Assembly: GCA_023228465.1 (NCBI GenBank)
Contig: JALOBC010000011.1
Location: forward strand, 29,938-93,937
Length of the DNA stretch: 64,000 nt
Origin: Dokdonella sp.
GTDB taxonomy: Bacteria; Pseudomonadota; Gammaproteobacteria; Xanthomonadales; Rhodanobacteraceae
Direction of reading: 5' to 3'
Below the pieces are notes generated by a model, which worked only from the letters and a program-made list of their open reading frames with translations, did not search any database and had not been told where the DNA came from. The translations under genes and the position numbers were made by a program. Positions 55,883 through 64,000 of this stretch are shown in pieces. How positions within the stretch are numbered: the stretch's first letter is position 1; every line of letters starts with the position of its first letter.

Positions 55883-57772
55883 TCACACTTCCAGCGAAGC
55901 CAGGTCGCCCTTGGTTTCCAGCCAGTGGCGCCGGTCGGGCGCACGCTTTCTCGCCAGCAGCATGTCCATCACCTGCGGCGTGCCGTCCTCGGCTTCCACG
56001 GTGAGCTGCACCAGGCGACGCGTGTCCGGGTTGATGGTCGATTCGCGCAGCTGTGAGGGGTTCATTTCGCCCAGGCCCTTGAAGCGGGTCACGCTGACCG
56101 TACCCTTGAGCTTCTCGCGCGCGATGCGGTCCAGGGTCGCGTCGCGCTCGGATTCATCCAGGCAGTAGAACACCTGCTTGCCCAGATCGACGCGGAACAG
56201 CGGCGGCATCGCCACGAACACGTGGCCTTCGGCAACCAGGCGCGGGAAATGGCGCAGGAACAGGGCCGAAAGCAGGGTGGCGATGTGCAGGCCGTCCGAA
56301 TCCGCATCGGCCAGGATGATGACCTTGCCGTAGCGCAGTCCGCCGATGTCGTCCTTGCCGGGATCGCAGCCGATGGCGACGGCGAGGTCATGGATTTCCT
56401 GCGAGGACAGGACCTGGCCCGATTCGACCTCCCAGGTGTTGAGGATCTTGCCGCGCAGCGGCAGGATGGCCTGGAAGTCCTTGTCGCGCGCCTGGCGCGC
56501 CGACCCGCCGGCCGAATCGCCTTCCACCAGGAACAGTTCGGTGCGCGAAAGGTCGCTGGAGGCGCAATCCGCGAGCTTGCCGGGCAGGGCCGGGCCCTGC
56601 GTCACCTTCTTGCGCACGATCTGCTTCTCGGCCTTGAGGCGCGCCGCGGCGCGTTCGATGGCCAGGCGTGCGATCTTCTCGCCGATCTCGACGTGCTGGT
56701 TGAGGTAGAGCGCGAAACCGTCGTGCACGGCCTTCTCGACGTAGCCGGCCGCGTCGCGCGAGGACAGCCGTTCCTTGGTCTGGCCGGAAAATTGCGGATC
56801 GGCCATCTTCAGGGAGAGCACGAAGGAAAGCCGGTCCCACACGTCCTCGGGCGCCAGCTTGATGCCGCGCGGCAGGAGGTTGTGAAAATCGCAGAACTCG
56901 CGCAGCGCATTGGTCAGGCCCGAGCGCAGGCCGTTGACGTGGGTGCCGCCCTGCAGGGTCGGAATCAGGTTGACGTAGCTTTCCTGTACCAGCTCGCCTT
57001 CGGGCAGCCAGGCCAGCGCGAAATCCACCCCACCGTTGTCGCGTTCGTACTGGCCCACGTGCAGATCCGGCGGCAGGCGCTCGGCATCGCCGAGCATGGA
57101 CAGCAGGTAGTCGCGCAGGCCGTCCTCGTACTGCCATTCCAGCGTCTCGCCGCTGGCCTCGTCGCTCAGGCGCACGCTGAGTCCGGCGCACAGCACGGCC
57201 TTGGCGCGCAGCAGGTGCTTGAGCCGGGGCAGCGAGATGCGCGGCGAGTCGAAGTACTTCGGATCCGGCCAGAAACGCAGGCTGGTGCCGGTGTTGCGCC
57301 TGGCCACCGTGCCGGTCACGACCAGCGCGCTGGCCCGATCGCCGTTGTGGAAGCTCATCTCGTGGACCTGGCCGTCGCGGCGGATCGCCACCTCCAGCCG
57401 GCTCGAGAGCGCATTCACCACCGATACGCCGACGCCGTGCAGGCCTCCGGAAAAGCGGTAGTTGCGGTTGGAGAACTTGCCACCGGCGTGCAGGCGCGTG
57501 AGGATCAGTTCGACGCCGGGAATGCCCTCGTCGGGATGGATGTCCACCGGCATGCCGCGCCCGTCATCGGTGACGGCGACCGAGCCATCCACATGCACGG
57601 TCACTTCAATGACCTTCGCGTGGCCGGCCAGCGCCTCGTCCACCGAGTTGTCCACCACCTCCTGCACCAGGTGGTTGGGGCGCGTGGTGTCGGTGTACAT
57701 GCCGGGCCGGCGCCTGACCGGATCCAGGCCGGACAGCACCTCGATGTCGGCGGCGTCGTAGCGCGAACTCAT
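55883..57772 (-). CDS. parE: DNA topoisomerase IV subunit B
   Basis: A 629-residue type IIA topoisomerase ATPase subunit. The GHKL ATP site has VVDNSVDEALAGHA, the lid glycines FSGGLHGVGVSVVNALSSRL and the QTK region QTKERLSSRDA. The TOPRIM domain has FLVEGDSAGGSARQARDKDF and ILADADSDGLHI. The length and lack of the GyrB insert fit ParE (E. coli 630). With ParC it decatenates daughter chromosomes. The gene points away from the tRNA-Leu region and its start is 135 bp from the broken tRNA gene. Confidence 0.95.
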   Translation of the reverse strand: MSSRYDAADIEVLSGLDPVRRRPGMYTDTTRPNHLVQEVVDNSVDEALAGHAKVIEVTVHVDGSVAVTDDGRGMPVDIHPDEGIPGVELILTRLHAGGKFSNRNYRFSGGLHGVGVSVVNALSSRLEVAIRRDGQVHEMSFHNGDRASALVVTGTVARRNTGTSLRFWPDPKYFDSPRISLPRLKHLLRAKAVLCAGLSVRLSDEASGETLEWQYEDGLRDYLLSMLGDAERLPPDLHVGQYERDNGGVDFALAWLPEGELVQESYVNLIPTLQGGTHVNGLRSGLTNALREFCDFHNLLPRGIKLAPEDVWDRLSFVLSLKMADPQFSGQTKERLSSRDAAGYVEKAVHDGFALYLNQHVEIGEKIARLAIERAAARLKAEKQIVRKKVTQGPALPGKLADCASSDLSRTELFLVEGDSAGGSARQARDKDFQAILPLRGKILNTWEVESGQVLSSQEIHDLAVAIGCDPGKDDIGGLRYGKVIILADADSDGLHIATLLSALFLRHFPRLVAEGHVFVAMPPLFRVDLGKQVFYCLDESERDATLDRIAREKLKGTVSVTRFKGLGEMNPSQLRESTINPDTRRLVQLTVEAEDGTPQVMDMLLARKRAPDRRHWLETKGDLASLEV

Positions 57773-57907: not shown

Positions 57908-57954
57908 GCCCGGGTGGCGAAACCGGTAGACGCAGGAGACTTAAAATCTGTTCT
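57908..57954 (+). pseudogene. Truncated tRNA-Leu(UAA): 5' half only, probable old attachment site
   Basis: GCCCGGGTGGCGAAACCGG, a D-arm ending GTAGACGC and an anticodon loop CTTAAAA (57940-57946, anticodon UAA) form a clear 5' half of tRNA-Leu. After 57948 the sequence departs: the anticodon stem does not close properly and no T-arm (GGTTCGA) follows. CCGGGC at 57979-57984 could re-pair with the acceptor strand, but the total length is about 10 nt short for a Leu tRNA. A TACCAT -10-like box (57893-57898) remains upstream. Confidence 0.75.
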
Positions 57955-58108
57955 GTCAAGTCCTTTCTGCTTGAACTACCGGGCCAGAAGGTCAATAGTG
58001 ACAACGGTTTGCGAGCATCCAAGATGTAGCTTCATAGCTTGGCTTGGCGATCAGGAGCCAACTAGGCGCCAGTAGATAGAGGTAGGTGTTTCCAGCGCAC
58101 CGCGCTAC

Positions 58109-58427
58109 GCCCGAGTGGTGAAATCGGTAGACACAAGGGACTTGAACAATTTGAGCCTTCGGGGGGAAACGCCCGAAGTGAAGCCCGTCAAATTCGGCGA
58201 AAGCCCTGGATGCTTCGGCATCCGAGCCAACGCCGAGCCAAGCCCAAGCTATGCGCTTGGGAAGGTGTAGAGAGCAGACGGCGGGCACCTACGGCTGTAA
58301 GGCTATGGTGAAGGCGTGCTCCAGACCACGAACGCCCTGTGTGAGCAGGACGGCGGCGAAAGCCGAAGTGGTAAGAAAATCCCTCGACCTCACGGTCATG
58401 CCGGTTCGATTCCGGCCTCGGGCACCA
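58109..58427 (+). tRNA. tRNA-Leu(UAA) interrupted by a group I intron
   Basis: Exon 1 (58109-58143) runs from GCCCGAG to the loop CTT. Exon 2 (58376-58427) runs AAAATCCCTCG, T-arm GCCGGTTCGATTCCGGC, acceptor CTCGGGC, A and encoded CCA. Joined, they give an 87-nt tRNA with loop CTTAAAA and anticodon UAA, and perfect acceptor, anticodon and T stems. The intron sits directly after U34, the same place as the famous cyanobacterial and plastid tRNA-Leu(UAA) intron. No clear own promoter is visible; transcription may come from the promoter of the broken tRNA copy about 200 bp upstream. Confidence 0.95.
58144..58375 (+). ncRNA. Self-splicing group I intron (IC3-like, Azoarcus type), 232 nt
   Basis: The core shows AAATTCGGCGAAA (58190-58202, the J3/4-P4 region), GCCAACGCCGAGCCAAGCCC (58226-58245), AAGGTGTAGAGA (58262-58273), AGACGGC (58276-58282) and CTATGGTGAAGGC (58303-58315). 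All are near-identical to the Azoarcus tRNA-Ile intron core as I recall it. P7 pairs GAGCA (58272-58276) with TGCTC (58317-58321), where Azoarcus has GACUA/UAGUC, a compensatory change. The guide GAGCCTT (58153-58159) can pair with exon AGGG-A-CTT to form P1 with a U-G pair at the splice site. The intron ends in the obligatory G (58375). It has no open frame. Confidence 0.93.
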
Positions 58428-58434
58428 ATCCAGA

Positions 58435-58464
58435 GCCGCCCCTGCTCACGCAGGGGCGGCTTTT
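58435..58464 (+). terminator. Rho-independent terminator of tRNA-Leu
   Basis: An 11-bp GC-rich stem (58435-58445 with 58450-58460), TCAC loop and TTTT begin 8 nt after the tRNA CCA. The stop codon of the oppositely oriented DUF2274 gene lies in its loop. Confidence 0.9.
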
Positions 58465-58688
58465 CCGTTCTTGGGCTGTGTGCGCTTGAAGCCACGATCC
58501 CCGGCCATGAAGGCTTCCAGCATGTGCGGGATCAGCGTCATGGCATCGACCGCCTCGCCATACGCCTGCGCGTGCAACGCGGCGTAGCGGTCGAGGTCGG
58601 CTTTCAGGCTGGCCGGGCAGGCAAAGGTCAGCTTGACGCTCTCGGTCTTGGGCAGCGGCCCGAGCCGCAGCTTCTTGGTCGCGCTCAT
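58446..58688 (-). CDS. DUF2274 protein, last gene of the trb module
   Basis: An 80-residue protein with the DUF2274 core, KLRLGPLPKTESVKLTFACPASLKADLDRYAALHA, which reads like a ribbon-helix-helix-type small domain. The family occurs almost only directly after trbI in ICEs and is therefore a marker of such elements; its role is unknown. Its start overlaps the trbI stop as ATGA. Its stop lies in the loop of the tRNA-Leu terminator. Confidence 0.88.
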   Translation of the reverse strand: MSATKKLRLGPLPKTESVKLTFACPASLKADLDRYAALHAQAYGEAVDAMTLIPHMLEAFMAGDRGFKRTQPKNGKAAPA

Positions 58689-59944
58689 TGCGAAACTCCC
58701 CGATTGAAGAACAGCGGCTGGTACGGCCGCAGCACCAGATCCCGGTTGACGATGATGCGAACCGGCAGGCCCGGCCGCGTCGTCAGCGTCGGCTGGATGT
58801 TCATGTTGCGCCGGGTCATCTCCTGGCCGACCTGATTGATGCTGTCCTGTGCGCTGTCGCGTCCGGCAATGACGATGCGGTTGCCGTCCTGCCGGTTCTC
58901 CGGCGCAGCCAACTCAGCGCCGACGCCCAGCAGCGTCGTCAGCACCGCGCCCGCGATGATGCGATTCCAATGCCAGTCCACGTCGTCCTCCAGGCCGGCG
59001 TAGCCGGCCGGGTCGGTGCCGACAAGGTTGTCGAGCGCCAGCGAGGACGTGTCGGGCAGGATGACCCGGTTCCACACCACCTGCACGCGACTCTGCCCGT
59101 AGCTGACCTGGCTGTTGTAGCGCCCGAGGATGCGCGATCCTTGCGGGATCAGCAGGAACTTGCCCGTGGCCGAGTCATAGACCGGCTCCGTCACCGTGGC
59201 GATCACGTCGCCCGGCAAGTCCGACTTGATACCCGTCACCAGCGCACCGGCGATCACCGTTCCCGCCATCACCTGATACGGCGACGCCGGCAACGCCAGG
59301 TTGCCGGAATTGCGGGTTTCCGTAGAACCGGCTTTCAGGAATGCCTCTTTCTGATCTTGCCGGTTCTGCACGGCGGTCGGGTCGGCGGGCTGGGCCGATG
59401 TCGAAGCGGGCCCGGCAGCGAGCGGGTCGAAGGCCGCGAGCGTGCTTGCTGCACCCGGCGCCGCCTGCGCCACCATGGCGGCGGCTTGGCCGCCCGAGCG
59501 GAAGAACACCGACGAAGCCGCAGCGGCTTCCGCCTCCTTGCGCAAGGCGTCATTCGGGTCGTGGCCGGGCGCCGAGTAGGCGGCCACGGCCGGCTGCTGC
59601 GAGGCCACGATGGCCGGTCCGAGGTCGCCCGGTAGCGGCGGCCCCAGCTCGGGCACCTTCGGCGTCAGCTTCGAGTAGTCGGCCGGCAGGCCATCCAGCC
59701 CTTCGGACTTGGACACGCGATCGACGTTGTAAAGCTCGGTCTGCTCGTTGGCCCCGCGCCGCTGCGGCTGTAGCGACCAGATCGTGGCCCCGAGCACGGC
59801 GACCGACAGGCCGCCGACGAGGATGGCCAGCGTGCGCCGGTTCAGGCGCGTGACCGGACGCGGCTGGGCGCGCAGCGCCACCGCCTCGGGCGCCATCTTG
59901 CCCGCCTGCGGCGTGGCAAGGTCGGGGGTGTCGTCCTGGCCCAT
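58685..59944 (-). CDS. trbI: Conjugal transfer protein TrbI (VirB10-like)
   Basis: A 419-residue protein with a cytosolic N-terminus, one membrane helix (TLAILVGGLSVAVLGATIWSL, residues about 42-62), a Pro/Ala-rich periplasmic linker and the VirB10/TrbI C-terminal beta-barrel domain, with LLIPQGSRILGRYNSQVSYG and RVQVVWNRVILPD as signatures. VirB10-type proteins span both membranes and energise the type IV secretion channel. GGAGGAACTGAC precedes the ATG, which lies 1 nt after the trbG stop. Confidence 0.95.
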   Translation of the reverse strand: MGQDDTPDLATPQAGKMAPEAVALRAQPRPVTRLNRRTLAILVGGLSVAVLGATIWSLQPQRRGANEQTELYNVDRVSKSEGLDGLPADYSKLTPKVPELGPPLPGDLGPAIVASQQPAVAAYSAPGHDPNDALRKEAEAAAASSVFFRSGGQAAAMVAQAAPGAASTLAAFDPLAAGPASTSAQPADPTAVQNRQDQKEAFLKAGSTETRNSGNLALPASPYQVMAGTVIAGALVTGIKSDLPGDVIATVTEPVYDSATGKFLLIPQGSRILGRYNSQVSYGQSRVQVVWNRVILPDTSSLALDNLVGTDPAGYAGLEDDVDWHWNRIIAGAVLTTLLGVGAELAAPENRQDGNRIVIAGRDSAQDSINQVGQEMTRRNMNIQPTLTTRPGLPVRIIVNRDLVLRPYQPLFFNRGVSQ

Positions 59945-59945
59945 G

Positions 59946-60947
59946 TCAGTTCCTCCGCGTGCCATCCGTGCGCTCGATCCGCACCATGTCGCCCTTGTCG
60001 CCACCCAAGCGCAACTCGGCGGCGCCGAAAAGACGATCGACGATGTAGTACGGTGAACGGAAACGGTAATTGACCAGTTGCCCGTCGCCTTGCGCACCGA
60101 TGACGAACAGCGGCGGCAGCTCGCCTTGTGCGATGCCCGGCGGGAACTGGATATAGACCTTCTCGCCGTCATCGAAGGCGCGCAGTGGTTTCCACGGCGG
60201 ACTGCTGCCGCTGATCGCGTAGCGGAAGCGCAGGTTTTCCAGCGATAGCCCGGTACCGACAGGCGCGGCGGCGCTGGCCGCCTGCGCCTGGCGCTGCAAG
60301 GCCAGCATCCGGTCGCGCGGGTACTCCCAGGACACCGACGCCATCCACGTCTTCTCGGTCGAGGTCAGCTCCAGCAGGTACGTCCGGCGGCTGGTGGTGA
60401 TGACCAGATTCGTCTTGAGACCCGAGCGGATCGGCTTGACCAGCACGTTCACGCGCAGGTCGGCGCCGTTGCCGCTGGACGTGTCGCCCACGATCCAGCG
60501 CACGGTATCGCCAGCGGCCACCGTCACCAGTTCCTCGCCCGGCTGGAGTGCAATCACGGTCACTCGGCCCACGGCCGCATAGACCTGATACAGCGCGCCA
60601 TCGGTGAAGGGCCACACCTGAATCGCGTTGACATAGCCCTCGCGCGTGGGCGCGATGCGTGCCTCGGCGTTGGCACGCGAGACGCGCACCTTCTCGTCGG
60701 CCGGTTCCGGCGCAGGCTTGGCTTCCTCGCCCTCGGGCACTGGCTTCAACTGCGCCGGCATCGGCAACACCTCGGGCACAGTCACAACTTCCACTGGCTG
60801 AGGCGGTTCGGGCAGTGGCTGCGCCTGCACCGGCTCATCGAGCGAAATCACCGGCGGCGGCTTGCCCTGCGTGGCGCAGCCTGTGAACAAGATGGTTGAT
60901 GCAAGCAGGATCACCGGCAAAGCGGATCTACGGAAAAGTGCATTCAT
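59946..60947 (-). CDS. trbG: Conjugal transfer protein TrbG (VirB9-like)
   Basis: A 333-residue protein with a lipoprotein signal (LASTILFTGC; Cys at about 24), a Pro/Glu-rich region and a VirB9-like beta-domain containing NAIQVWPFTDGALYQVYAAVGRVTVI and VWNVSW-like WMASVSWEYPRDRM. It should form part of the outer-membrane core complex with TrbI and TrbH-type lipoproteins. Its ATG overlaps the trbF stop as ATGA. The frame remains open upstream inside trbF, which is not part of the gene. Confidence 0.94.
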   Translation of the reverse strand: MNALFRRSALPVILLASTILFTGCATQGKPPPVISLDEPVQAQPLPEPPQPVEVVTVPEVLPMPAQLKPVPEGEEAKPAPEPADEKVRVSRANAEARIAPTREGYVNAIQVWPFTDGALYQVYAAVGRVTVIALQPGEELVTVAAGDTVRWIVGDTSSGNGADLRVNVLVKPIRSGLKTNLVITTSRRTYLLELTSTEKTWMASVSWEYPRDRMLALQRQAQAASAAAPVGTGLSLENLRFRYAISGSSPPWKPLRAFDDGEKVYIQFPPGIAQGELPPLFVIGAQGDGQLVNYRFRSPYYIVDRLFGAAELRLGGDKGDMVRIERTDGTRRN

Positions 60948-61648
60948 GGCTTGGCTCCTTCGGAAGAATCCAGTTCGCGGCTCCACGACAGGCCATTGAC
61001 GTAGATGCCCAGGGGGTTCTTGCGCAGGCGTTCTTCGGTGCGCGGCGGCTGGAGCACGATGGACACCACGGCCGTCCACCGCTCCAGCCCAGCCGCGGCG
61101 CCATTGACGTAGCGGCGTTCCGTCCAGCGCACGTTGAACGACGTGTCGCTGGCGCGCACGACGCTGGTGATCTGCACCGTTACCGACTCTTTGCCGATGC
61201 GCGCGAACGGATCGTTCACGCGCGCGTAGTCGTTGAGCACGGCCGCGCCCTTGTCGGTGGTGTGGTCGTAGGCGTCCAGCCAGTTCTGCCGCACCACGAT
61301 CGGGTCGATGGACAGCGACCGAACCAGCGTGACGAAACGCGCGATGTGGTGCGCCGTCTGCGCATCGCTGGGCCGGTACGGCGTAGCGGCTTCGCCCACG
61401 GCGCGCACCTGGCCCGCGTTGTCCACCTCCACCACATAGGGCGTGACGATGGACTGCGCCGAGCGCCAGACCAGGCCGCCCGCCATCAGCAGCGCAAGCG
61501 CGAGGCAGCCGAAGGCCATGAGGCGCCAGTTTTTCGCCTGCACGCGGGACGAGCCAATGCGCTCGTCCCACACCTGGCCGGCAGCTTGGTACGGAGTGGC
61601 AGGCTGCGGCGTGTCGGCGTAGCGCACCTGCGGTCGTTTAAATCGCAT
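60944..61648 (-). CDS. trbF: Conjugal transfer protein TrbF (VirB8-like)
   Basis: A 234-residue protein with a short cytosolic start (MRFKRPQVRYADTPQPATPY), one membrane helix (WRLMAFGCLALALLMAGGLVW) and a periplasmic VirB8-like domain, IVTPYVVEVDNAGQVRAVG through FNVRWTERRYVNG. VirB8/TrbF proteins nucleate inner-membrane assembly of the type IV machine. AGGAGAACTGACC precedes the ATG, 12 nt after the trbL stop. Confidence 0.95.
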   Translation of the reverse strand: MRFKRPQVRYADTPQPATPYQAAGQVWDERIGSSRVQAKNWRLMAFGCLALALLMAGGLVWRSAQSIVTPYVVEVDNAGQVRAVGEAATPYRPSDAQTAHHIARFVTLVRSLSIDPIVVRQNWLDAYDHTTDKGAAVLNDYARVNDPFARIGKESVTVQITSVVRASDTSFNVRWTERRYVNGAAAGLERWTAVVSIVLQPPRTEERLRKNPLGIYVNGLSWSRELDSSEGAKP

Positions 61649-61660
61649 GGTCAGTTCTCC

Positions 61661-63061
61661 TTATGAATTGGAATCGCGCAGGCTCGGCCCCTGGCCGGAG
61701 CCGCCGCCATCGCCACCGCGCAGCGCGTGGGCGGTGGTGGTCGCGGCATGAGTGAGTTGCTGGCGGCGGTGCAGCCGCTTGGCCCAAGCGGGCTGTTCTT
61801 GCTTCTGCGCGTTGGCGCCGCCCGCTGCGGCTTCGCCTGTGGAGGCCTGGCTGGATGCTCCGGCTCCACCGGATGCCGCACCCGCACCGTCGTCAGTCGG
61901 GCCGTTCCACCCGGCACGGAAGGAGCTGGTCATCTTCTGGCCGAAGGCGGATGCGCGGGACGCTGCACCCCGTCCGGCAGACTGCGCGCCGGTCTTGGCG
62001 ACATTTCCCAAGCCGGCCATCGCGCCTTTCGCGCCACCGCCTGCGGCGGCGGAACCGGCCTGGAACGCCGAGCGTGCGCTGCTGGCCGTCGAGGTGGCAG
62101 CACGCGCACCACTGCCGGCGAGCTTGGCCGCGGCAGGCGCCATGCGCGCCCCGGCCATGACCGCGCCGCCTACGCCCGTCGCGGCGGCACCGACAGCAAC
62201 AGCGGCTCCGGCAGCACCCACCGCAGCGCCGGCCATCGCGCCCGCGCCGAGCTGGGGCGCACCGGAGACGAGGCCCGTGGCGATGCCAGGGCCGAAGATC
62301 CCTAGCGCCAGCAAGGTGAGCGAGGCCAGCATGATGACCAGTGCGTGGTCGATGGACGGCTCGGCGGGATGGACTTGGAACTGAGCGAACAGGCCCGAGC
62401 CAATGCCCACGATCACGGCCAGCACCAGCACCTTGATGCCGGCGGAAACGACATTGCCCAGCACCTTCTCTGCCAGGAACGAGGTCTTGTTCCACAACGC
62501 GAACGGCACCAGCACGAACCCGGCGAGCGTGGTCAGCTTGAACTCAATCAGGGTGATGAAAAGCTGGATCGCCAGCACGAAAAAGCACAGCACCACGACC
62601 AGCCACGCGAGGAACATCACCGTGATGGCATCGAGGTTCACGAACACCTCGGGGAAGCCGGCCATCTCGCCGACTTGCTCCAGAATCGGCGCCCCGGCGT
62701 CGATGCCGGTCTTGGCGAGCCGGCCCGGCTGCAAGAAGTTTTCCATGGTGATCGCCGAGCCGGTGGCCGTCAGGCCCAGCCCGGCGAAGGATCGGAACAC
62801 GATGCCGGCCAGCCAGTTGAAGTTGCCGATGATGTAGGCGAAGGCACCGACGTAGAGCACCTTGCGCAGCAGCTTGGCGATCACGTCCTCGCCCTGGCCG
62901 GTGGCGTGGCTCATCGCCCAATACAGTCCGGCGATCGTCATGTCGATGACGATCAGCGTGGCGGTGAGGAAGGCCACTTCGCCCTGCAACAGCCCGAAAC
63001 CCGAGTCGATGTAGGCGGAGAAGATATTGAGGAACTGGTCGATGATGGTCACGTCATTCAT
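61661..63061 (-). CDS. trbL: Conjugal transfer protein TrbL (VirB6-like)
   Basis: A 466-residue polytopic protein. The first 270 residues hold about six membrane helices (FLTATLIVIDMTIAGLYWAM, ITVMFLAWLVVVLCFFVLAI and others). The rest is a long low-complexity Ala/Gly tail with Ser/Arg segments, as usual for TrbL. VirB6/TrbL proteins form the inner-membrane channel part of the DNA transfer machine. The start overlaps the trbK-like stop as ATGA. Confidence 0.94.
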   Translation of the reverse strand: MNDVTIIDQFLNIFSAYIDSGFGLLQGEVAFLTATLIVIDMTIAGLYWAMSHATGQGEDVIAKLLRKVLYVGAFAYIIGNFNWLAGIVFRSFAGLGLTATGSAITMENFLQPGRLAKTGIDAGAPILEQVGEMAGFPEVFVNLDAITVMFLAWLVVVLCFFVLAIQLFITLIEFKLTTLAGFVLVPFALWNKTSFLAEKVLGNVVSAGIKVLVLAVIVGIGSGLFAQFQVHPAEPSIDHALVIMLASLTLLALGIFGPGIATGLVSGAPQLGAGAMAGAAVGAAGAAVAVGAAATGVGGAVMAGARMAPAAAKLAGSGARAATSTASSARSAFQAGSAAAGGGAKGAMAGLGNVAKTGAQSAGRGAASRASAFGQKMTSSFRAGWNGPTDDGAGAASGGAGASSQASTGEAAAGGANAQKQEQPAWAKRLHRRQQLTHAATTTAHALRGGDGGGSGQGPSLRDSNS

Positions 63062-63402: not shown

Positions 63403-64000
63403 TCAGTTACCGTAGAAATCCACGCGCTGCGGCGTGTACGGCGTGCCTTCGCCCAGGAAACGCCGCCGCACTTCGCGGGCGCGCTCCGTGGCCGCCGCCT
63501 GCCGCGCCAGCTCCAGCGAAGTGGCCCGGTCTTGCGTGATCTGAAGCCGCTGCGACTGGATCGACTGCTTGGCCTGCAAGGCCAGCAACTGGTTCATGGC
63601 CTGCATCGCCTGCAGCGCGCCTTCGGCCGACTGGCTCTTGCCCACGAGATCGGCCAGCACACTCTCGTCTTCGCCCAGGTTCCGCGACACCTGCGCCTGC
63701 ATCTGCATGGTGGTTTGCAGGCCGTTGAGCGTGTTCCTCCAACGCTCCTGCGCGTCGCGGACCATCTGGTCGCCGCTGACGGTGGCGGCGTACTGCTCGG
63801 GATACAGGCGGGCGAACTCCCGATCCAGGTTCGTCACGTCGTAGGCCAAGCCCCTGGCCTGGGCGATCAGCCGTTCGGTCGTCGCCAGATTGGCGCGCAA
63901 CTGGTTCACCACGCTGGACGGCAGGCTGGCGAGGTTGCGCGCCTGGTTCATCAGCATCTGCGCTTCGTTTTGGAGCTGACGAATCTGGTTGTTGATCTGC
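63403..64000 (-). CDS. trbJ: Conjugal transfer protein TrbJ (VirB5-like), C-terminal part
   Basis: The open frame enters from the right edge and ends at 63403, giving about 198 residues of the C-terminal part. It is mostly helical and Gln/Ala/Leu rich, with LANLATTERLIAQARGLAYD-like and LAYDVTNLDREFARLYPEQY segments and the ending RRFLGEGTPYTPQRVDFYGN, all typical of TrbJ. VirB5/TrbJ proteins are periplasmic or pilus-tip components. The N-terminus with its signal peptide lies outside the window. Confidence 0.9.
   Translation of the reverse strand, partial: QINNQIRQLQNEAQMLMNQARNLASLPSSVVNQLRANLATTERLIAQARGLAYDVTNLDREFARLYPEQYAATVSGDQMVRDAQERWRNTLNGLQTTMQMQAQVSRNLGEDESVLADLVGKSQSAEGALQAMQAMNQLLALQAKQSIQSQRLQITQDRATSLELARQAAATERAREVRRRFLGEGTPYTPQRVDFYGN

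Follow-up and report, generated by a model that had tools for sequence, protein, structure and literature searches.

Bacterial tRNA genes have long been known to contain group I introns (passage of PMC3984707), and tRNA-Leu(UAA) introns are mentioned for Beggiatoaceae in an excerpt of PMC4853749. The title of a cited reference terms the pre-tRNA introns of both Azoarcus and Synechococcus IC3. Among conjugative elements, ICEMh1 and ICEPmu1 of Pasteurellaceae are described, in the excerpted part of PMC6861422, as lying in the anticodon loop of a tRNA-Leu gene (UUG codon), with the direct repeat GATTCAAAATC; according to the same part, the end of ICEMh1 itself retains the conserved T-arm portion, and a complete tRNA is thereby restored at one side.

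Two further lines of work bring tRNA disruption and mobile elements together. Randau and Soll, as quoted in passages of PMC4390854 and PMC3293823, proposed that disruption of tRNA genes protects against integration, and a passage of PMC3293823 credits Sugahara et al. with linking archaeal tRNA disruption to an integrating element. In IStrons, as an abstract presents them, a group I intron is joined to a mobile element and softens its cost. The locus analysed here lies in a stretch of 64,000 nucleotides (the window) from the genome of a Dokdonella sp. (G000, a draft of 99 contigs).

Results

The intron-split tRNA-Leu(UAA) gene

An earlier note on this DNA had described a tRNA-Leu(UAA) gene at 58109-58427, interrupted directly after U34 by an intron of 232 nt. 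ARAGORN in intron mode called exactly this span and started the intron at position 36, i.e. after a 5' exon of 35 nt (58109-58143) that ends at U34. The intron (58144-58375, last base G) is followed by a 3' exon of 52 nt with encoded CCA (58376-58427), all on the forward strand, and the spliced sequence, which has the 87 nt and encoded CCA ascribed to it, was called tRNA-Leu(TAA) by ARAGORN. The insertion point after U34 is that of the cyanobacterial tRNA-Leu(UAA) intron. The warning that ordinary scanners would miss the gene proved right, as ARAGORN without the intron option found no tRNA anywhere in the window. The group I assignment was borne out by the Rfam model Intron_gpI (RF00028), which matches 58134-58324 over the whole model length (39.2 bits, E 2.8e-8); because this score lies below the gathering score of 50, a default Rfam scan of the window is empty. 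The earlier description thus stands in its coordinates and gene, but it is incomplete, since the decisive features lie just outside 58109-58427.

The fold was assessed in an alignment of the window intron with 18 mutually dissimilar relatives, picked to represent the 73 Leu(taa) loci described below; the representatives have introns of 199-252 nt, which look too short to encode a homing endonuclease. In these 19 sequences 97.1% of cells are paired in the expected helices, both-side changes occur in 31 of the 59 pairs, and the observed value was reached by none of 500 shuffles on any of the five measures used. The P3/P7 pseudoknot (P3 at 58184-58189/58280-58285 and P7 at 58272-58276/58317-58321, forward strand) is paired in 100% of cells, with two double-changed pairs in each helix. 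The structure was derived from the same alignment, except for the hand-added P7, and is for this reason favoured against slid controls; the double changes are stronger evidence for the fold than the comparison with controls. P1 lies at 58141-58145/58151-58155 (forward strand). A U.G pair at the 5' splice site was found in 19/19 aligned sequences, and the exon end CTT together with a terminal G in 72/73 Leu(taa) calls among the matches listed, the remaining one looking misplaced. Chance resemblance was rejected on the covariation in the 19 sequences: the window intron is a group I intron by its sequence, and its splicing is predicted.

Downstream of the gene, a perfect 12-bp hairpin followed by a T-rich stretch (58434-58461, forward strand) is the probable terminator of the tRNA gene. 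The terminator scan gave another pairing (58442-58459), its one find standing against 0.8 expected. Matches to Rfam sX6 and P17 that adjoin the gene reflect this hairpin, lie far below their cut-offs and were discarded. The promoter scan revealed no sigma-70 consensus promoter near the intron-split gene.

The split host gene and the attachment core

Upstream of the intron-split gene, a second tRNA-Leu(UAA) begins at 57908 and runs for 41 nt, up to 57948; its last letters are ...GGAGACTTAAAATC, and what follows is no longer tRNA. These 41 nt comprise the truncated 5' half of the host's own gene (57908-57939, forward strand) and the attL core CTTAAAATC (57940-57948, forward strand), that is, the anticodon loop and two stem bases; the half ends 160 nt upstream of the intron-split gene. 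A search of the genome with the intron gene led to a second place, G000:C67:146-197, where ...CTCTGG is followed by CTTAAAATCTCCCGG...GGGCACCA, the 3' half of a tRNA. The core is common to attL and to attR at G000:C67:143, with the shared run extending to 57949, and the intron of the element-borne gene sits three bases into the copy of this recombination core that the gene would otherwise hold. The 5' half in the window, joined to C67 from position 143 onward, was called tRNA-Leu(TAA) by ARAGORN, neither half being called alone; therefore the host gene, beside a GyrB/ParE-type topoisomerase subunit gene in the chromosomal flank outside the element (55883-57772, reverse strand; Pfam DNA_gyraseB and related domains), has been cut in the anticodon loop.

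In this draft the two att ends lie on different contigs, and the empty-site test was made on the window's element together with those of G079, G055 and G168 (UAA) and G139, G175 and G191 (CAA). In 7/7 cases joining the halves gave a tRNA-Leu whose anticodon is the one encoded by the intron gene of that element, and the lone halves were not called.

Anatomy and mobility of the element

The left arm of the element (57949-58108, forward strand) begins with TGTTCTGTCAAG, a start which is conserved in relatives according to an alignment of 19 left arms. The 142-nt right arm on C67 is identical at 111-136 positions to the arms of seven relatives. A partly palindromic motif, GGAGCCAACTAGGCGCCA, at 58054-58071 is largely conserved in the 19 aligned left arms; it is perhaps a candidate integrase arm site.

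To the right of the intron-split gene the reverse strand encodes a mating module that runs off the contig end (TrbI, TrbG, TrbF and TrbL, 58.7-64 kb). It starts with a DUF2274 protein of the conjugation module (58446-58688; Pfam) and continues with TrbI (58685-60172; Pfam TrbI, 4.9e-61), an open frame holding TrbG (59946-61571; CagX domain at residues 315-534, Pfam 6.8e-67), whose true start is probably further in than the frame start, TrbF of the VirB8 family (60944-61648; Pfam 1.8e-68) and TrbL of the VirB6 family (61661-63061; Pfam 1.8e-50). On the same strand, the protein at 63403-63957 gave no Pfam match and is named for the TrbJ position only; in other elements, too, its relatives adjoin this module.

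Where a relative holds the whole element on a single contig, the distance from core to core is 43.7 kb (G079), 44.7 kb (G055) and 13.8 kb (G168, whose cargo differs: TonB receptor, FecR, Fic and RelE-type proteins). All three (3/3) encode a tyrosine integrase with Arm-DNA-bind_3 just inside the other end; at E <= 1e-60 the window genome's own integrase was not found in its assembly, and phage records likewise gave no match to the integrase at this threshold. Between G000 and G020, which belong to different genera, the intron is 100% identical and the host halves are different. The window gene is thus, as judged from these sequences, carried by an integrated conjugative element, whose transfer is predicted. 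The assumption of an ordinary chromosomal tRNA gene has to be given up: the gene is on an element that cut the host tRNA-Leu(UAA) in two.

Spread of intron-split tRNA genes

The window's family set comprised 233 genomes of 26 genera, and the intron was matched in 34 of these genomes, in 16 of the genera. Both exons are present in 28 of the 30 family loci read (20 UAA and 8 CAA). The remaining two are L034, a UAA gene with an intron of 484 nt, and L033, a remnant in which the 3' exon and the 3' portion of the intron are all that is left; the genome of L033 (G050) has an intact tRNA-Leu(UAA). A core-pattern scan of the whole collection yielded at least 119 places, plus 11 in viral contigs, and 130 loci were examined. 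Among the matches listed, ARAGORN classed them as Leu(taa) (73), Leu(caa) (24), Arg(cct) (25), others (5) and none (3); among the five others, at least the pair called "Phe(aaa)" seem, by eye, to be misplaced Leu(UAA) genes.

Two claims of the earlier note lose their force here. An intron in a proteobacterial tRNA-Leu(UAA) is no novelty, as it is common (73/130 loci among the matches listed) and as Beggiatoaceae cases are published (excerpt of PMC4853749). Nor would an IC3 core at the cyanobacterial site be a surprising mix, because the title mentioned above assigns the pre-tRNA introns of Azoarcus and of Synechococcus alike to IC3.

Among the matches listed, the upstream 500 nt contain a truncated 5' half, broken off at the anticodon loop, in 20/72 testable Leu(taa) loci, 6/24 Leu(caa) loci and 1/2 "Phe(aaa)" loci, and in 0/25 Arg(cct) [tRNA-Arg(CCU)] and 0/3 other loci. 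No tRNA halves were found in the downstream flanks or in shuffled flanks (five shuffles each). All 27 upstream halves are of the isoacceptor which the respective intron gene encodes: 21 are UAA, including one that was typed by eye, and 6 are CAA. Judged by sequence, the arrangement recurs in many proteobacteria.

The 71 of 97 Leu loci which, among the matches listed, have no recognised half nearby indicate that the intron also occurs outside such elements or after their decay. These loci may be resident genes, relics or other cargo, as in L220 and L217 (both next to tRNA-Cys) or in L102, discussed below. In L217 (position 9640) the intron-split tRNA-Leu(UAA) adjoins tRNA-Cys with an apparent decayed host half between them, and in L220 (9629-10050) the same neighbours have no host half between them, which suggests stages of element loss and takeover of a resident locus.

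Two further kinds of locus were noticed. L187 (1995-2295, plasmid NZ_CP139688.1) and L188 are Enterobacteriaceae plasmid stretches near aac(3)-IId, drawn from 1281 matched plasmid records; ARAGORN puts the intron elsewhere and calls a stop-anticodon tRNA in both, and L187, the one whose sequence was read, seems on inspection by eye to hold an entire tRNA-Leu(UAA) that has a group I intron of its own. L318 (G019) and L319 (G021) are third intron-like loci with a tRNA-Met(CAT) call and an intron of 242 or 245 nt, in genomes that also hold intron-split Leu(UAA) and Leu(CAA).

A sister family at tRNA-Leu(CAA) and its integrases

In G139, G175 and G191 the element lies in tRNA-Leu(CAA) and carries an intron-split tRNA-Leu(CAA) with the intron after C34; the shared core, CTCAAAA, is the whole anticodon loop. 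The 5' splice-site pair of this type would be C-G, not the usual U.G, in 24/24 loci among the matches listed, and the tRNA-Leu(CAA) introns of L235, L237 and L239 likewise follow C34, which would give a C-G pair. Such a pair may, to judge from the sequence, splice poorly.

Integrases were searched for in 28 genomes (27 with a half and one without), 18 of which gave a match. Integrases of UAA type (84-90% identical, one a fragment) lie beside a UAA attR in 12/12 loci, and those of CAA type (63-70% identical) beside a CAA attR in 5/5 loci; one partial match and four second copies adjoin neither attR. In the window's family, six UAA and four CAA integrase loci lie beside the matching attR and seven loci show none; in G008 attR is about 96 nt from a partial integrase. 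G168 and G175 are by coordinates the same as G244 and G247, and are counted in both integrase searches. The position of an integrase beside attR is seen repeatedly in relatives.

Integrases of about 62-66% identity occur where there is no tRNA-Leu half nearby (G049, G103, G041 and G040; L243, L244 and L245; the second copies L265-L268), some of them near contig ends. They may form a third group. Integrases of similar identity (62-66% to the UAA type) are also found on plasmids (120 records).

A search starting from the element ends

The anatomy was also approached from the other side, with patterns of the element-side sequence after the core, which had been learned from intron-bearing loci. 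The UAA pattern gave 8 sites in the 233 window-family genomes and 12 in 399 genomes of a second family. A host half is present at 19 of these 20 ends, and all 19 carry an intron-split tRNA-Leu(UAA) on the same strand, starting 157-203 nt after the core start. The remaining site, G194, was considered as a possible counterexample: its contig stops 139 nt after the core, and the preceding sequence is not a tRNA half. The CAA pattern gave 15 sites in the same 399 genomes; 10 have a host half, and 10/10 of these carry an intron-split tRNA-Leu(CAA) at about 195-203 nt. The other five, with neither tRNA half nor intron gene, were taken as chance matches.

Over both families, 29/29 ends with a host half carry an intron-split gene and none an intronless one within the stretch searched; related elements among these 29 are not independent. 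Genomes already found through the intron account for 11/19 UAA ends and 1/10 CAA ends, leaving 17 others. As far as such sequence comparisons reach, a split host gene, a shared core and a full-length intron-split gene of the matching isoacceptor recur in a constant arrangement. Also checked as possible counterexamples were the drafts of G034 and G185, in which integrase and attR are present and the intron gene was not found; in G034 the 5' half was not found either.

Is the intron-split gene the replacement?

The window genome gave 43 tRNA matches, of which nine are long: Leu with anticodons CAA, TAG, CAG and GAG, four Ser and one Tyr. The only intronless match of UAA type (core plus T-arm) is the attR half, and the intron gene therefore looks like the only tRNA-Leu(UAA) in the 99 contigs of this draft.

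The count was extended to 31 genomes of the family, G029, G041 and G217 (weak or edge intron matches) being left out of the 34. An intronless UAA-type match is present in 15 of them, as the attR half only in 7 and as an intact tRNA-Leu(UAA) in 8. Among the 23 genomes with an intron-split UAA gene (those of the 20 loci read, together with G019, G021 and G227) none has an intact UAA match: 7 have the attR half only and 16 nothing. An intact match is present in 6/6 genomes with the CAA type only, and also in G050 and G103 (broken or weak intron matches). Family-wide, 176/192 good genomes have an intronless UAA-type match; the 16 without it are 14 with the intron, G144, and G002, which has an intact UAA gene with a variant T-arm. 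The G002 case demonstrates that the UAA pattern can miss genes, and since the pattern is strict, absence of a match is not proof.

The stretches seen in the broad set were up to 8 kb (longer for some viral contigs). In one of them, L102, an intron-split tRNA-Leu(CAA) at 1273-1589 has no half upstream, and an intact intronless one (c4615-4699) lies about 3 kb off on the other strand, adjoining a distant tyrosine recombinase (22% identical). Given the intact copy nearby, the intron gene there is not a needed replacement; L102 is a real exception, perhaps another kind of element with an intron-split tRNA as cargo. In six genomes (G048, G092, G106, G109, G111 and G069) a single contig carries a pair of intronless tRNA-Leu(UAA)-type matches separated by about 40-47 kb; these may mark other islands which have entered this gene and which do restore the tRNA.

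Discussion

Our preferred reading, to which we give a probability of about three in four, is that a conjugative element in the host tRNA-Leu(UAA) gene brings a rescue tRNA with an intron that conceals the attachment site from the integrase, splicing then restoring the tRNA. A tyrosine integrase would insert the element into the anticodon loop, splitting the host gene into two unusable halves at the element ends. The element would bring a whole tRNA-Leu(UAA), placed 160 nt inward from the left end and co-oriented with the truncated host gene, and this complete gene would be the cell's source of tRNA-Leu(UAA), the host gene not being rebuilt from a matching fragment. Without an intron, the replacement would present the anticodon-loop core once more, about 200 nt from attL, and would therefore be open to attack by the element's own integrase as well as by incoming relatives. 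The group I intron after U34, inside the core CTTAAAATC, would break this DNA site, and its removal from the transcript, presumably by self-splicing, would yield a normal and functional mature tRNA. Transcription may proceed by read-through from the host promoter, which is possible because no sigma-70-like promoter was found near the gene. That masking is the reason for keeping the intron we infer from its presence at 29/29 ends and with two specificities.

The main rival to masking is passive retention, in which the anatomy and the rescue of the host are the same, and the intron, acquired with the gene from an intron-bearing donor, is a passenger that plays no part at the DNA level and is seldom lost. 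Intron-split tRNA-Leu genes without a recognised half are indeed common (71/97 among the matches listed), some sit next to tRNA-Cys in apparently resident clusters (L220), and in L102 such a gene, the apparent cargo of another element kind, lies beside an intact one. However, both families keep the intron inside their own core at 29/29 ends, amid arms, host halves and cargo that vary, and the two families differ in target isoacceptor and have integrases only 63-70% alike. We consider passive retention a serious though rather unlikely explanation. The idea that the intron is regulatory, its conditional splicing making the host depend on the element or timing excision, could draw on the fact that the replacement is the only UAA gene found, so that splicing efficiency would limit UUA decoding; it is very improbable, as it offers no reason for the intron's position within the recombination core in both families. 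The weakest alternative, a resident chromosomal gammaproteobacterial tRNA gene with an unrelated pseudogene half nearby, has next to no probability and was rejected at the window locus on the attR half on C67 and the element arms: resident-looking genes exist elsewhere (L220), but the halves at the two ends join to an ARAGORN-called tRNA (7/7), the gene travels together with the trb module from genus to genus (G000/G020), and its spacing from the core is 157-203 nt in 29/29 cases.

Returning to masking, we think it more probable than not that two related conjugative families use a group I ribozyme as a DNA-level shield of their replacement tRNA. If this is true, the shield would provide self-immunity, exclusion of same-site competitors and a wide host range, the last because no tRNA fragment must match that of the host. 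It would be a way for a mobile element to hit a usually single-copy tRNA gene in many hosts, and would explain the spread of small proteobacterial tRNA-Leu introns, which conjugation would carry along on elements that the host comes to need.

In the papers searched, which were mainly open-access ones, no element with an intron-split replacement tRNA was found to be reported. The bacterial tRNA introns (Azoarcus tRNA-Ile, cyanobacterial and Beggiatoaceae tRNA-Leu(UAA)) are, like those described here, small group I introns in the anticodon loop with U.G at the 5' splice site and a terminal G. Here, unlike there, the gene is element-borne and replaces the tRNA gene that the element destroyed, and the intron lies inside the element's recombination core. 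ICEMh1 and ICEPmu1, as the excerpt of PMC6861422 presents them, are likewise conjugative elements integrating in a tRNA-Leu anticodon loop. Unlike ICEMh1, however, the seven elements tested here rebuild no tRNA at either end (ARAGORN), and they carry an intron gene, of which the excerpted description of ICEMh1 contains none. The intron of IStrons, according to the abstract, belongs to the inserted element and removes the insertion by splicing, whereas here the intron resides in a replacement tRNA gene. The proposal of Randau and Soll, as it is quoted, shares with our reading an intron at the attachment site that prevents recombination; it concerns disrupted archaeal tRNA genes of the host, whereas here the element carries the disrupted gene, with a group I ribozyme. 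The elements described here would thus provide a concrete and repeated natural case of tRNA introns guarding integration sites, a role which has so far, in the quoted passages, been argued from archaeal patterns.
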